Shown: piece by piece, positions 21,737 through 35,618 of the stretch
How the letters are laid out: each line of letters begins with the position of its first letter
How positions within the stretch are numbered: position 1 is the first letter of the stretch
NCBI RefSeq assembly: GCF_028737315.1
Contig: NZ_JAQZAO010000005.1
Span: 372,001-436,000 of the forward strand
Length of the DNA: 64,000 nt
From: Actinomycetospora lemnae
Lineage (GTDB): Bacteria > Actinomycetota > Actinomycetes > Mycobacteriales > Pseudonocardiaceae
Direction of reading: 5' to 3'
The notes under the pieces: generated by a model
What the model was told of the DNA's origin: nothing
Databases searched by the model: none
What the model saw: the letters and a program-made list of their open reading frames with translations, nothing else
Program-made: the position numbers and the translations under genes

Positions 21737-22771
21737 TCAGGCGCTCTTGCTGCGACGGCTCTTCGCCGGCGCGGTCTCCTCGTCGTCCTCGGACTTCTTC
21801 TTCGACGACGAGCGCCGCGTCGACTTCTTCGGCGCCTCCTCTGCTGCCTGCTCGGCCTTCTCCTCCGTCTTCTCCTCGGTCTTCTTGGTCCGCGAGCGGG
21901 AGCGCTTGGGCTTCTCCTCGGACCCGGATTCGGCCGCGACCTCCTCGGACCCGGAGTCGGAGCTCGCCGCCGCGGGCTCCTCGGCCGGCGCCTTGCCGCC
22001 GGCCGCCTCGACGCTGCGCCGCAGGGCGGTCAGCAGGTCGGTCATGTCGTCGCCCTCGTCGGCCGCGGCCGGCTCGGGTGCCGGGCGCCCGCCGCCGTGC
22101 TCGCGCTTGTACTCGATGAGGTCGACCATCGCCTGGCGGTAGTCGTCCTCGAACTGGTCGGAGTCGAAGTCGCCCGAGAGGCTCTCGACCAGCGAGGACG
22201 CCATCTGCATCTCCTGCGGGCGCAGGTCGACCTCGGTGCGCAGCGTCTCGAACTCCGGCTCGCGCACCTCGTCGGGCCACAGCATCGTCTGCAGCACGAT
22301 CGCCTCGTCACGTACGCGCAGCAGCGCCAGCGTCTCCCGCTGCCGCAGCGCCACCTTGACCACGGCCATGCGGTCGGTCTCGCGCAGGGCCTCGCGCAGC
22401 AGCGCGTAGGGCTTGACGGCCTTGTTCTCCGGCTCGAGGTAGTAGCTCTTGTCGAGCAGCAGCGCGTCGATCTGGTCGGACGGCACGAACTGCACGACGT
22501 CGATCTCGTGCCCGCTCGCGACGGGCAGCGTCGCGAGGTCGTCGTCGTCGAGCATGATCAGCTGGCCGTCGTCGGTCTCGTAGCCCTTGGCGATCTCGGA
22601 GTACTGCACCTCCTCGCCGCAGACCGAGCACGTGCGCTTCTGGCGAATGCGGCCGCCGTCGCGCTCGTGCACCTGGTGGAAACGGATGTCGTGGTTCGTG
22701 GTCGCGGCGTACAGCCGCACCGGCACGTTCACGAGCCCGAACGACACCGCGCCGTTCCAGATCGCGCGCAT
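21737..22771 (-). CDS. ku: Ku protein of bacterial NHEJ
   Basis: A 344-residue Ku homolog that binds double-strand ends and recruits LigD. It starts MRAIWNGAVSFGLVNVPV, the Ku signature. A Cys pair (CSVCGEEV) and the core ring follow to about residue 255. The last 90 residues are a lysine/serine/glutamate tail like the extended DNA-binding tails of actinobacterial Ku. Two ATGs are adjacent (22774 and 22771); the second has better spacing from GAGAGGGG. LigD is not in this window; instead a ligase-like protein without the active lysine is divergent, 164 bases away. Confidence 0.96.
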   Translation of the reverse strand: MRAIWNGAVSFGLVNVPVRLYAATTNHDIRFHQVHERDGGRIRQKRTCSVCGEEVQYSEIAKGYETDDGQLIMLDDDDLATLPVASGHEIDVVQFVPSDQIDALLLDKSYYLEPENKAVKPYALLREALRETDRMAVVKVALRQRETLALLRVRDEAIVLQTMLWPDEVREPEFETLRTEVDLRPQEMQMASSLVESLSGDFDSDQFEDDYRQAMVDLIEYKREHGGGRPAPEPAAADEGDDMTDLLTALRRSVEAAGGKAPAEEPAAASSDSGSEEVAAESGSEEKPKRSRSRTKKTEEKTEEKAEQAAEEAPKKSTRRSSSKKKSEDDEETAPAKSRRSKSA

Positions 22772-22935
22772 CATCGGCCCCTCTCGGCGGACAGGCGGGT
22801 CGTCGCGGATCGTCGACCGTCACCGTGCGTCCGCCCCAGCATGCCGCAGGAGCACCATCTGTCCCAGTCAACGCCGCCGACGACGCGCCGACCCCGGTCC
22901 GCGGCGATGTCGGACGGCGGGGGCACGATGGGCCG

Positions 22936-23646
22936 GTGCGTCCGATGCTCCCCGTCCCCGGCGACCTGCCGGTCGACGGTGCCTGGAGCTACGAGGTCGA
23001 CTGGGCGGGAGTCCGTCTGCTCGCCGACGTCGACCAGGGCGAGCTGACCCTCCGCACCGCCGACGGCGAGGACGTCACCGACCGGTTCCCCGAGTTCGGC
23101 GGCCTCGTCGACGCCGTCGCCGACGGTCTGCTCGACGGCGAGGCCGTGATGCTCGACGGCGGCAGCCCGTCCGCCGACGCGCTGGGCGAGCGCCTGCGGG
23201 TCGCCGACGCCGGCCGCGCCCGGGCGCTGGCCCGCGAGCGGCCGGCGGTGTTCATGGTCTACGACGTCGTGCGCCTCTATGGGGTGCCGCTCGACCCGCG
23301 CCCGCTCGAGGAGCGGCGGGCCGTGCTCACGCGCCTGGACCTCTCGCGCACCACCCGCATCCAGATCAGCCCGGCGTACGACGACGGCCCCGCGCTGCTG
23401 TCGGGCGTGGTCGCCCAGCGGCTGGCCGGCGTGATCGCCAAGCGCCGCGGCACGCCCTACCGCTCCGGCGACTCGGGCGGCGACTGGATCCGCGTCGACC
23501 CGGCCGTCACGACCGCTCCCACCCGGACCCCGACCGCGTCCGCCGCCCCGCCCGCCCCGCCCACCCCGACAGCTGCCCCAGCCGCGTCCCGCCGACCCCG
23601 GCACGCGCGCCGGGAGCGCACGCCGCAGCACGACACGCTCTTCTGA
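22936..23646 (+). CDS. LigD-like adenylation domain without catalytic lysine (pseudoligase)
   Basis: A 236-residue protein aligning with the nucleotidyltransferase domain of LigD-type ATP-dependent DNA ligases. It begins RPMLPVPGDLP. Motif I should read Y-E-x-K-x-D-G-x-R but is YEVDWAGVR (19-27): the nucleophilic Lys is Asp22 and the Asp is Ala24. Motif III (LDGEAVMLD, 66-74), motif IIIa (FMVYDVV) and a motif IV relic (LAGVIAKR) persist; motif V is WIRVDP. The OB-fold half is missing and replaced by a Pro/Thr/Ala then Arg-rich tail. Adenylate transfer is thus unlikely. It may bind DNA, nucleotide or Ku. Divergent from ku. Confidence 0.85.
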   Translation: MRPMLPVPGDLPVDGAWSYEVDWAGVRLLADVDQGELTLRTADGEDVTDRFPEFGGLVDAVADGLLDGEAVMLDGGSPSADALGERLRVADAGRARALARERPAVFMVYDVVRLYGVPLDPRPLEERRAVLTRLDLSRTTRIQISPAYDDGPALLSGVVAQRLAGVIAKRRGTPYRSGDSGGDWIRVDPAVTTAPTRTPTASAAPPAPPTPTAAPAASRRPRHARRERTPQHDTLF

Positions 23647-32141: not shown

Positions 32142-32189
32142 CGACCCGTGGGCGAACGACGCCCGGGAACCCGACGAGGAGGTGGCCGC

Positions 32190-32888
32190 GTGGCCCTGCC
32201 CGTGATGCCGGCGGACACCGCGGCGACGCCGGAGATCCACACCGAGGTCGAGGTCGAGGTCGAGGTCGAGGCCGAGGTCGACGTCGACACCGATGCCCCG
32301 GCGAGCGCCGACGCCGCCGTGGTCGCCCGTCTGGCCCGGCGGGAGCAGGCGGCGCTCGACGAGCTCTACCAGCGCTACGGGCGCCCCGCGTACTCGCTCG
32401 CGCGCCGGATCTGCGGCGACGAGGGCCTCGCGGAGGACGTGGTCCAGGAAGTGTTCCTCGCGCTCTGGCGCGACCCCGCCCGCTTCGACCCGTCGCGGGG
32501 CACCGTCGCCGGCTGGCTCATGACGCTCGTGCACCACAAGGCCGTCGACGCCGTGCGTCGCGAGGCCACCCGGCGCCGTCACCACCCGACGACCGGCGAG
32601 CCGGACGAGGGCGTCCCGGCCGGCGGGCCCTCGGCGGCGCGGCAGGCGTTGGGTGCGGTGATCGGCGAGCAGGTGCGCGCCGCGCTGCACCGCCTGCCCA
32701 CCGAGCAGCGCACGGCCCTCGGCCTCGCCTACTACGGCGGCTACTCGCAGCGCGAGGTCGCCGGCCTCACCGGCGTCCCGATCGGCACCGTCAAGTCCCG
32801 CATGTTCGCCGGGGTCGCGCGGCTGCGCGTGCTGCTGGGGCCGGTGCTGGGCGCGTCGGCGGCCGACGCGCTCGGGGACCTGGCGTGA
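32190..32888 (+). CDS. sigK: ECF sigma factor, SigK-like
   Basis: A 232-residue group IV sigma factor. Region 2 starts at about residue 50 (LDELYQRYGRPAYSLARRI, AEDVVQEVFLALW). Region 4 has LPTEQRTALGLAYYGG and the recognition helix GVPIGTVKSRMFAGVARLR. The GTG is 7 bases behind GAGGAGG. The N-terminus carries an unusual VEVEVEVEAEVDVD run, encoded by GAGGTC hexamer repeats at 32244-32285. It overlaps the downstream anti-sigma gene by 4 bases (GTGA). Pairing with an RskA-like anti-sigma supports a SigK-type factor; the signal is likely from outside the membrane. Confidence 0.93.
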   Translation: MALPVMPADTAATPEIHTEVEVEVEVEAEVDVDTDAPASADAAVVARLARREQAALDELYQRYGRPAYSLARRICGDEGLAEDVVQEVFLALWRDPARFDPSRGTVAGWLMTLVHHKAVDAVRREATRRRHHPTTGEPDEGVPAGGPSAARQALGAVIGEQVRAALHRLPTEQRTALGLAYYGGYSQREVAGLTGVPIGTVKSRMFAGVARLRVLLGPVLGASAADALGDLA

Positions 32889-33679
32889 GCACCTGCGCTC
32901 TGCGCGCCGACGCCGTCGGCGCCGCGTTCTCGGCGCTCGAGCCCGAGGAGGACCTCGCGCTGCGGGCCCACCTCGCGCACTGCGCGGCCTGCCGCCGGAC
33001 GCTCGCCGAGGCGACGGACGTCGTCGCCGCCCTGGGGGCCGCGGTGCCCCAGCTCGACCCGCCGCCCGCGTTGCGGGGGCGGCTCCTCGACACCGTCCGG
33101 GTCGAGCGCGGGCCGGAGCCGCCGACCCCGACGCGCGTCCCGCACCCACCCGCCGCACCCCGCCGCTCGCCTGCCCTGGCGATGGCGGGCGCCCTCCTGG
33201 CCGCCGTCGCGCTCGGGCTGGTCATGGTCCTCGCCGGTGCCGTGCTCGCGACGCGGTCGCCCACCCCGGACACGTCGGCGAGCACGGTGGACGCGCGGGC
33301 CGACCGCGTGGTCGCCGACGCCCGGTCCGCCGACCCCGGCGTGCGCGCCACCGTCCTGCGCGGGGAGACCGGCGCCCCGGTCGCCGTCCTGCTCGACCCC
33401 GGCGACCCCGCCGCAGCGGTCCGCCTCGTCGCGCTCGACCTCCCCGCGACCGGGACCGGCCGCGACTACGTCGTGTGGGCCACCGGGCTGCCGGGCAACG
33501 CGCCCGAGGCGGTGGCCGTCATGGACCCGGACGACGGGGTGACACGCCCGCTCGGCGACGTCCCGGGACCCGCTCCGGGGACGCCCGCCCCGCGCGGGTG
33601 GGCGGTGTCCGTCGAGGCCAGCGGGCCCGTGCCGCCGCGGCCGTCGACGGTCGTGGCCGTCGGTCTGGTGGCGGGCTGA
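32885..33679 (+). CDS. rskA: RskA-like membrane anti-sigma factor
   Basis: A 264-residue single-pass membrane protein. The N-terminal zinc anti-sigma (ZAS) motif HLAHCAACRRT (H-x3-C-x2-C) binds the sigma factor. A proline-rich linker and one transmembrane helix (about residues 98-121) follow. The outer domain matches the RskA C-terminal domain: DYVVWATGLPG, AVMDPDDG and RGWAVSVEASG. Starts inside the sigK stop (GTGA), so production is coupled one-to-one. Release of SigK by proteolysis of RskA is the known mechanism in mycobacteria; it is inferred here. Confidence 0.9.
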   Translation: MSTCALRADAVGAAFSALEPEEDLALRAHLAHCAACRRTLAEATDVVAALGAAVPQLDPPPALRGRLLDTVRVERGPEPPTPTRVPHPPAAPRRSPALAMAGALLAAVALGLVMVLAGAVLATRSPTPDTSASTVDARADRVVADARSADPGVRATVLRGETGAPVAVLLDPGDPAAAVRLVALDLPATGTGRDYVVWATGLPGNAPEAVAVMDPDDGVTRPLGDVPGPAPGTPAPRGWAVSVEASGPVPPRPSTVVAVGLVAG

Positions 33680-33875: not shown

Positions 33876-35618
33876 ATGACGGACGTGGCGACCCTCGCCA
33901 CCGGGTTGCCGGGGGCCCTGGGCACGGCCGGTGCCGGCGAGGCCTCCCCGGGACGGCCCATGCTCGCGAGCGCCGGCGACGTGCCGCGCGGCGCCGGGTG
34001 GGCCTTCGAGTTCGCGTGGGACGGGCTGCGCTGCCTCGCGCGCACGGGCCCCGAGGGCCTGCGCCTCGTCACCGACGCGGGCCGCGACGTCACCTCGCAC
34101 TTCCCGGAGCTCGGCGTCACGGCGCCGTGGACCAACACCGCGGGCCTCGTGCTCGACGGCGTGGTGGTCGCGCTCGACGGGGTCGGCCGGCCGAGCGCGG
34201 GCAAGCTGCGCCGCCGCCACCGCGTCGCGCACCCCTCGGAGGTGCTCCAGGCGCAGGTACCGGTGTCCTTCTACGTCTTCGACGTCCTCGAGGTGGCCGG
34301 CGCCTCGACGCGGCGGCTGCCCTACCGCCAGCGCCGCGAGCTGCTCGCCGAGCTCGATCTCTCCGGGAGCAGGGTCGTGATCCCGCCGTTCTTCACGGGT
34401 GTCGCCGCCGAGGCCGTCGTCGACACGGCGCGCCGCTACGGGCTCGACGGCGTCGTGGCCAAGCGCCTGGAGTCGACCTACCAGGTCGGCCGCCGTTCCC
34501 GGAGCTGGATCGAGACGCCGGTGCGGCGCACCCAGGACGTCGTGGTCGGCGGGTGGGTCCCGGCGCGCGGACGTCCCGACACCGTGGGCGCGCTGCTCGT
34601 CGGGGTGCCGGGCGAGGCGGGGCTGAGCTACTCGGGGCGGGTCGTCACGGGCGTCACCGCCGCTGCGCGCCGCGAGCTCGACGGGCTGCTCGGCGGGCTG
34701 GAGCGGTCGGTCAGCCCGTTCGCCACCACGCTGCCCGAGGACACGGGCGGGACGGTGCACTGGCTGGCGCCGCGGCTGGTCGGCCAGGTCGAGCACCGGC
34801 GCTGGACCGCGACCGGCCTGCTCGAGCGCCCGGTCTGGCAGGGCCTGCGCTCGGCGCACCCGGCCACCGTCGCCGCGCCGGTGCTCTCCGCGCCCGTGGT
34901 CGACACCGACCTGGAGCTCGACGACCTCGAGGTCGCCGACGCCCGCACCCCGGCCCGGGTGTCCGACGTCGTCGCGGCCCCGTCCAGCGAGGACGTGGAG
35001 TCGGCGCTGCGGTCGCGGTTCTCGGCGCACTTCGTGCACAACACGCTGACGGCGATCGCGGCGTACGTCCGCACCGACCCCGGGCGGGCGCGCGAGCTGC
35101 TCACCGAGTTCGCCGACTTCACCCGCTACTCGTTCCGCTCGGGCGGCGAGCTCACCACGGTCGGCGACGAGCTGCTCAACGCCGAGCGCTACCTCACCCT
35201 GGAGCAGGCGCGCTTCGGGCAGCGGCTGCGCGCCGAGGTCGCGGTCGCGCCGGAGGTCCGCGGCGTGCTGGTGCCGCCGTTCGTCGTGGCGCCGCTGGTG
35301 GAGAACGCCGTGCGCCACGGCATCGAGCCGGTGCCGGGCGGGGGCTCGGTGAGCGTCTTCGCGTCCGGGTCCGGCGCCGACTGCGTGATCACGGTGTCCG
35401 ACGACGGCGCCGGCATGGGTCCGGAGGCGACGCGCGCCGCGTCGCAGGTCGACCGGCGCCACGGCGGCATCGCCGAGGTCTCGCGCCGGCTGCACGCGAC
35501 GTTCGGCTCGCAGTGCGACGTCCACGTCGACACCCGGCCCGGGGTGGGCACGGCGGTCCGGCTGCGCCTGCCCGCGGTGACCGCGGCGGAGGCGCCGAGC
35601 AGGGTCCTGGTCGGCTGA
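33876..35618 (+). CDS. fusion: lysine-less LigD-like ligase module plus LytS-type histidine kinase
   Basis: A 580-residue, apparently soluble protein. Residues 27-215 match the LigD adenylation domain: RPMLASAGDVP, motif I FEFAWDGLR (44-52, where the nucleophilic Lys is Ala47), LDGVVVALDG (motif III), FYVFDVLEV and DGVVAKRLES (motif IV). Motif V reads SWIETPV, having lost its lysine. Residues 220-325 match the ligase OB fold (VVVGGW, GLSYSGRV). From 370 on is a His_kinase/HATPase unit of the LytS class: SAHFVHNTL (His385), PPFVVAPLVENAVRHG (N box), DDGAGMG and PGVGTAVRLRLP. No membrane helix; no response regulator adjacent. ATG behind GGGGAGGGG. Confidence 0.88.
   Translation: MTDVATLATGLPGALGTAGAGEASPGRPMLASAGDVPRGAGWAFEFAWDGLRCLARTGPEGLRLVTDAGRDVTSHFPELGVTAPWTNTAGLVLDGVVVALDGVGRPSAGKLRRRHRVAHPSEVLQAQVPVSFYVFDVLEVAGASTRRLPYRQRRELLAELDLSGSRVVIPPFFTGVAAEAVVDTARRYGLDGVVAKRLESTYQVGRRSRSWIETPVRRTQDVVVGGWVPARGRPDTVGALLVGVPGEAGLSYSGRVVTGVTAAARRELDGLLGGLERSVSPFATTLPEDTGGTVHWLAPRLVGQVEHRRWTATGLLERPVWQGLRSAHPATVAAPVLSAPVVDTDLELDDLEVADARTPARVSDVVAAPSSEDVESALRSRFSAHFVHNTLTAIAAYVRTDPGRARELLTEFADFTRYSFRSGGELTTVGDELLNAERYLTLEQARFGQRLRAEVAVAPEVRGVLVPPFVVAPLVENAVRHGIEPVPGGGSVSVFASGSGADCVITVSDDGAGMGPEATRAASQVDRRHGGIAEVSRRLHATFGSQCDVHVDTRPGVGTAVRLRLPAVTAAEAPSRVLVG

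Follow-up and report, generated by a model that had tools for sequence, protein, structure and literature searches.

To our knowledge, bacterial nonhomologous end joining (NHEJ) has been described as Ku plus a ligase with no signalling arm, and we know of no two-component kinase with a DNA-repair fold as its input domain. In animals, DNA-PKcs is a kinase that works with Ku at broken ends. The Deinococcus kinase RqkA is a DNA-damage-responsive Ser/Thr kinase that is not known to involve a ligase fold or Ku, and Spo0B-type phosphotransferases combine a DHp domain with a degenerate ATPase domain. The ligase domain of Mycobacterium tuberculosis LigD is bound directly by the Ku core (PMC9638933). 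A search of the open-access literature found no description of a ligase-like domain fused to a histidine kinase, in line with the original prediction for this locus, which knew of no described system with such an architecture; nor is such a protein described in passages of the NHEJ papers PMC5124664 and PMC7719229. The parts of the protein reported here are of known kinds, and their combination, the lysine-less family and its linkage to Ku are new to us.

The gene lies in a 64,000-nucleotide stretch of the genome of the soil actinobacterium Actinomycetospora lemnae (contig NZ_JAQZAO010000005.1, positions 372,001 to 436,000 of the forward strand), referred to as the window. Its product is best read as a soluble histidine kinase in which an NHEJ-type DNA ligase, devoid of its catalytic residues, has become the input domain. 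The uninterrupted 580-codon frame proposed earlier is present as one open frame from the ATG at 33876 to the stop at 35616-35618, and GGGGAGGGG is located a few bases 5' of this ATG. The features are:

33876..35618, + strand: pseudo-ligase/LytS histidine kinase fusion of 580 amino acids (single frame, Pfam, fusion kept in relatives)
33954..34520, + strand: nucleotidyltransferase domain, residues 27-215, without the motif I Lys, the motif III Glu and the motif V Lys
34521..34856, + strand: OB-fold domain, residues 216-327 (Pfam DNA_ligase_A_C and model)
34887..34994, + strand: disordered linker, residues 338-373 (pLDDT <50)
35004..35228, + strand: LytS-class DHp domain, residues 377-451, with His385 and Asn389 (Pfam His_kinase; both residues in 52/52 aligned fusions)
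35283..35576, + strand: HATPase_c ATP-binding domain, residues 470-567, with intact N, G1 and G2 boxes

The domain search that the original prediction had proposed returned all four expected families in the expected order, each exceeding its curated Pfam cut-off: DNA_ligase_A_M at residues 39-212 (7e-19), DNA_ligase_A_C at 235-326 (5e-16), His_kinase at 377-451 (6e-16) and HATPase_c at 470-567 (2e-9). The LigD-type ligase fold predicted for residues 27-325 was recovered in a search of the Protein Data Bank, where 1vs0, the LigD ligase domain of M. tuberculosis, aligns to residues 27-327 (5.6e-50), as well as by structure prediction. The LytS-class part, predicted at residues 370-565, extends over about 375-567 and contains His385, the N box and the DDGAGMG sequence as described. 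With 200.2 bits the protein stays below the cut-off of 227.75 for the NCBIfam family TIGR02779 (NHEJ_ligase_lig), which is passed by some fusions from the two uncultured genera g14 and g45 introduced below. An AlphaFold2 model built with 34 aligned sequences had a mean pLDDT of 83 with a dip at about residues 511-530 in the ATPase part; its single domains are confident, and the arrangement of the domains is uncertain because the pTM is 0.56. In a Foldseek search with this model, LigD ligase structures were best by E-value (7e-29) at an rmsd of about 13, and a tighter fit was obtained to DNA-bound human ligase 1 (rmsd about 4). Over 19-residue stretches the mean Kyte-Doolittle hydropathy reached at most 1.5, too low for a membrane helix, which supports a soluble protein. 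A frameshift or misassembly was ruled out, since the ligase and kinase parts share a single open frame in relatives of 97 to about 36% identity; they occur there as one gene and not as the two separate genes or the shifted frame that the original prediction had considered.

Compared with the LigD ligase domain (TIGR02779; 1vs0, 6nhx), the N-terminal part has the same fold, is 40-48% identical to its kin and in some genera is likewise linked to Ku, but it lacks the three catalytic residues of motifs I, III and V and has a kinase attached. Residue counts were made for 52 aligned fusions and 40 kin ligases (lone or LigD-type), the same 40 to which the identity values refer. The 52 remain from 70 loci after removal of 17 duplicate loci with the same genes and of the ordinary LytS locus L075, and they are part of at least 82 fusions (17 from Actinomycetospora, 10 from g14, 3 from g45 and at least 52 from Pseudonocardia); the second copy of the g45 genome G388 (L092) is outside the alignment. 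The motif I lysine is present in 40/40 kin ligases and in 0/52 fusions, where its place is taken by Ala (22), Val (10), Ser (8), Leu (5), Gly (3), Thr (2), Arg (1) or Tyr (1). In the window protein motif I reads EFAWDG versus EGKWDG in 1vs0, with Ala at residue 47 as predicted, and motif V reads WIETP versus WVKDK, in agreement with the predicted loss of its lysine. Two further losses are those of the motif III Glu (V96) and of LigD Arg501, whose place is taken by D67. The kin ligases share 76 positions conserved in at least 97% of their sequences, and 15 of these drop below 50% in the fusions. Most affected are K47, R67, E96 and L265 with 0/52 each (Arg replaces L265 in 49), followed by K213 of motif V (3/52) and G230 (4/52); K47, R67, E96 and K213 each occur in 40/40 kin ligases. 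The place of E191 is held by Glu in 9 and by Asp in 28 fusions, and R52, R114, R153, R154, R207 and W211 are kept in 52/52.

The same separation was seen among 80 named loci, in which 38 fusions with an aligned H box all lack the motif I lysine and 40 kinase-free ligases all have it; the other two are lysine-less ligase parts without an aligned H box, L176 and L147, where the contig ends. The net charge of the ligase part has a median of +7.5 in the fusions versus +3 in the kin ligases. Judged from these residues, ligase chemistry should be dead, as the original prediction also held, because the catalytic residues of motifs I, III and V are lost across the 52 aligned fusions, the motif V lysine excepted in 3. 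Residual activity through another lysine was considered and rejected, the motif IV Lys196 being found in only 42/52.

The original prediction had left room for binding of ATP or NAD, and the old ATP pocket could in principle bind a nucleotide without chemistry and so act as a nucleotide or cofactor sensor. By the 1vs0 alignment and position counting, K47, R67, E96, E191 and K213 correspond to LigD Lys481, Arg501, Glu530, Glu613 and Lys635, and R52 and R207 to Arg486 and Arg629, residues whose roles are given in PMC8656161. The same paper describes a Lys481 mutant that retains ATP binding, so loss of the lysine alone leaves ATP binding possible, and the invariant Arg486 and Arg629 equivalents also speak for this reading. 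On the other side, the equivalents of Lys481, Arg501, Glu530, Glu613 (here Asp), Lys635 and Lys637 (here Pro) are all changed in the window protein, although the last counts for little because this position is not Lys in 35/40 kin ligases either. A conserved ATP/NAD sensor across the fusions is unlikely because most residues of the ATP pocket are changed, which weakens the earlier suggestion and makes nucleotide sensing a decidedly improbable role for the domain.

The fusion is present in Actinomycetospora, in Pseudonocardia and in the two uncultured Pseudonocardiales genera g14 and g45. It was found in 17/18 Actinomycetospora genomes (g1), the exception being the 83% complete G035, and the closest named relative found belongs to Actinomycetospora straminea (L112, 97%). 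Full-length matches, defined as reaching model position 482 or beyond, occur in at least 52/62 Pseudonocardia genomes; 51 have no internal stop and one spans a stop. In 395 other genomes sampled from the phylum, each of the matches listed extended over either the ligase or the kinase part, and none over the two. The ligase tree places the fusions in one clade with support of 100/98 (17 rows, including the fusion L072), and in the kinase tree one branch parts 16 fusions from 16 ordinary LytS proteins at 93/97, just short of the tool's star. The fusion has a single origin by these computations. Between the window gene and six Actinomycetospora relatives dN/dS was 0.065-0.166 for the ligase part, 0.013-0.084 for the kinase part and 0.10-0.44 for the linkers, and three comparisons within a second subclade gave 0.16-0.35, 0.14-0.24 and 0.25-0.52, respectively, showing that the fusion is under purifying selection within this genus. 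The fusion is no artefact and recurs across four genera. Decay of the ATPase half in Pseudonocardia, described next, is what a fusion losing its function might display; the full-length frames in Pseudonocardia and Actinomycetospora and dN/dS values well below 1 argue against an artefact or a functionless, decaying gene, which is extremely unlikely given this conservation.

The kinase part resembles other LytS-class (PF06580) kinases, which work with LytTR regulators, in its HFxxN DHp motif, its ATPase boxes and its 52% identity to the ordinary LytS of the same genome, with 48/74 identical positions in the DHp domain and 52/119 in the ATPase part. It differs in having a ligase-like input domain, where the ordinary LytS has a weak GAF match under the cut-off, in lacking an adjacent LytTR gene, and in that many of its relatives have lost the ATPase. 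His385, Phe386, Asn389 and Glu432 are found in 52/52 fusions. The kinase boxes reported as intact by the original prediction are so in the window protein and in the Actinomycetospora proteins aligned (N, G1 and G2), and the fusions of g14 and g45 retain the N and G1 boxes with a weak G2 box. By contrast, 21/24 aligned Pseudonocardia fusions have lost the N box, their later boxes being lost or degenerate, and the ATPase boxes of the remaining three (L052-L054) are partly degenerate. This weakens the predicted phosphotransfer sensor as a description of every copy: ATP-driven kinase activity, and with it signalling by autophosphorylation, is not common to all fusions, because HATPase_c was recognised by Pfam in only 17/31 fusions scanned and the boxes are gone in most Pseudonocardia copies. 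An Asn four residues past the phosphoacceptor His is used for phosphatase activity in histidine kinases, and because this residue is kept, the DHp domain may serve as a phosphatase, or else as a phosphotransfer module, in the Pseudonocardia lineages with a decayed ATPase. These copies, like Spo0B-type proteins, consist of a DHp and a degenerate ATPase domain, whereas Spo0B-type proteins have no ligase-like domain.

A scaffold would be another use of such a molecule. The DHp dimer could hold two pseudo-ligase arms, so that two Ku-bound ends are kept together or an active ligase is held in place, with phosphorylation secondary or absent. Recognition of the PF06580 DHp domain and the pseudo-ligase in 31/31 fusions scanned, as compared with the 17/31 for the ATPase domain, points in this direction, as do the linkage to Ku described below and the model of one Pseudonocardia fusion, in which the ATPase fold is partial and the chain ends there. 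A pure scaffold is nevertheless not expected to keep His385 and Asn389 in 52/52 proteins, since we take these to be active-site and not dimer residues, and in the six comparisons with the window gene selection constrains the kinase part more tightly than it does the ligase part. On balance we regard the scaffold as unlikely.

The neighbourhood of the fusion gene in the window contains a Ku gene and a second ligase-like gene:

21740..22819, - strand: Ku gene (open frame), about 11.1 kb from the fusion (Pfam Ku, 2.9e-51)
22825..23643, + strand: second lysine-less ligase-like protein, nucleotidyltransferase domain only, motif I YEVDWAG, start codon uncertain

In all ten fusion-bearing g14 genomes, Ku is encoded immediately 5' of the fusion on the same strand, with gaps of -5 to 94 nt that are approximate because the starts of the relatives were assigned by a script (nearest ATG/GTG 5' of the aligned part; none was found for L136). 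The upstream gene of the g14 locus L046 was identified as Ku by Pfam (2.5e-47). In g45, G387 has its fusion tail to tail with Ku; of the two copies in G388, one is arranged in this way and the other is on a contig without Ku. The Ku-adjoining copy of G388 (G388:C543, L092:7175-8578) is a 468-residue frame with an ATPase match under the cut-off and the motif I sequence FEFTWDGNPG, in which the motif I Arg is also lost. Ku is 8.0-13.6 kb from the fusion (median 10.4 kb) in the 15/15 Actinomycetospora genomes with both genes on one contig, and G031 and G032 have them on separate contigs. This spacing of 8-14 kb is not an operon, and the 15 genomes are not independent because they share one inherited arrangement; a Ku gene within 14 kb has a chance of roughly <1% per genome, to be read with the Actinomycetospora arrangement as one inherited state. 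No linkage was seen in 39 Pseudonocardia genomes, of which 11 have both genes on one contig, separated by no less than 494 kb, and 28 have them on separate contigs. A comparison of 40 loci showed no neighbour other than Ku whose homologues occur in three of the four genera. By computation, linkage of Ku to the fusion gene was thus seen in three genera, with Pseudonocardia as the exception.

The second ligase-like gene is head to head with Ku and its product has no OB match. Asp occupies the place of the motif I lysine, and YEVDW is found in 8/8 distinct Actinomycetospora genomes aligned; homologues have Arg in G388 and Lys in three Pseudonocardia copies adjoining Ku. A small lysine-bearing ligase is next to Ku in the 3 Pseudonocardia genomes checked. 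These proteins bear on the possibility that the pseudo-ligase is a competitor, which takes Ku or DNA ends, blocks active ligases and limits mutagenic joining, with the kinase as its gate. The fusion-bearing genome still encodes, at other loci, lysine-bearing ligases of the LigD/LigC kind, and a second lysine-less ligase adjoins Ku in Actinomycetospora. A brake of this sort would need neither a conserved phosphoacceptor nor an intact ATPase, and we consider it quite unlikely.

Other neighbours were recorded. The fusion is directly preceded, at 32148-33676 (+) of the window, by genes for an ECF sigma factor and for a protein whose weak zinc-finger (anti-sigma-like) match falls just short of the cut-off, and a sigma-factor gene with region 3, different in type from the Actinomycetospora ECF factor, is near the fusion in the Pseudonocardia locus L055. 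An acyl-CoA-dehydrogenase-like gene (Pfam on L052 only) of low similarity occurs 1-7 kb from the fusion in Actinomycetospora and Pseudonocardia and is taken for a common family. At L055:5087-12642 and equivalent loci, many Pseudonocardia fusions share a conserved setting that comprises a HAD hydrolase, a GH65 enzyme and an opposite-strand DUF3516 DEAD-box helicase, as established by Pfam on L055 only and by homologues in the other D2/D3 loci. The A. lemnae genome also has a ligase-like gene split over two frames, perhaps a pseudogene, whose motif I (AELTWDG) has Thr at the position of the Lys (G000:C24:232701-233284, L008).

The absence of an adjacent LytTR gene, noted in the original prediction, was confirmed: none is near the fusion, and of the genome's two LytTR matches one is 191 kb off on the same contig and the other is on another contig. 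The partner had been left open on these grounds, and for this part a candidate now exists. The 16/16 Actinomycetospora genomes examined (of 18) each encode the fusion, one ordinary LytS and no third LytS-class kinase, together with one LytTR gene in 10/16 and two in 6/16; in g14 two LytS-class kinases were counted in 9/10 genomes and one LytTR in 8/10. The argument from a single regulator fails in g45 (4 and 3 LytTR genes) and in four Pseudonocardia genomes counted (2-4 LytTR and 3 LytS genes each) because of their two to four LytTR genes. The greater likeness to LytS of the DHp domain than of the ATPase part is expected if one regulator is shared, but a slower-changing DHp domain would give the same result. 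From the gene counts and the DHp similarity we infer that the two kinases may share a LytTR partner. In the A. lemnae genome a LytTR gene is about 5 kb from the ordinary LytS (L243, G000:C26:205500-217500), and the genes around this pair, which encode an S49 peptidase, a sodium:solute symporter and an AMP-binding enzyme, suggest no obvious link to DNA damage.

Five readings were weighed, with the remainder of the probability left to unspecified explanations, and the one we favour, at a probability of about 0.42, is that the fusion is a candidate Ku/DNA-end sensor kinase. A ligase domain beside Ku whose fold and positive charge persist while its catalytic residues are gone is most simply a docking and sensing part. 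The adjacency of Ku in the relatives strengthens the sensor reading. In the sensor kinase, the pseudo-ligase would replace an active ligase by docking on Ku where DNA is broken, or directly on the broken end. Its occupancy would alter the DHp dimer, the ATPase domain would phosphorylate His385, and the phosphate would be handed on to the LytTR response regulator with which the ordinary LytS otherwise works. The full chain, in which Ku at a broken end recruits the dead ligase to start His-Asp signalling and double-strand breaks become a two-component signal independent of RecA/LexA, is more doubtful. The likeness to Ku/DNA-PKcs holds only if this hypothesis is right, since the fusion belongs to an unrelated kinase family, would transfer phosphate through His and has a candidate association with Ku; RqkA is likewise a bacterial kinase tied to DNA damage but again of a different kinase family.

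Even without the kinase reading, the fusions form a clear pseudo-ligase family whose gene adjoins Ku in several genera. A conserved, Ku-linked dead ligase on a histidine kinase would, if true, join NHEJ and two-component signalling and offer a testable route to the question of how double-strand breaks can be sensed without RecA filaments as the reporter. It suggests a possible route by which bacteria turn broken DNA into a signal, and would make the fusion a functional, though not a homologous, bacterial counterpart of a Ku-dependent DNA-break kinase.
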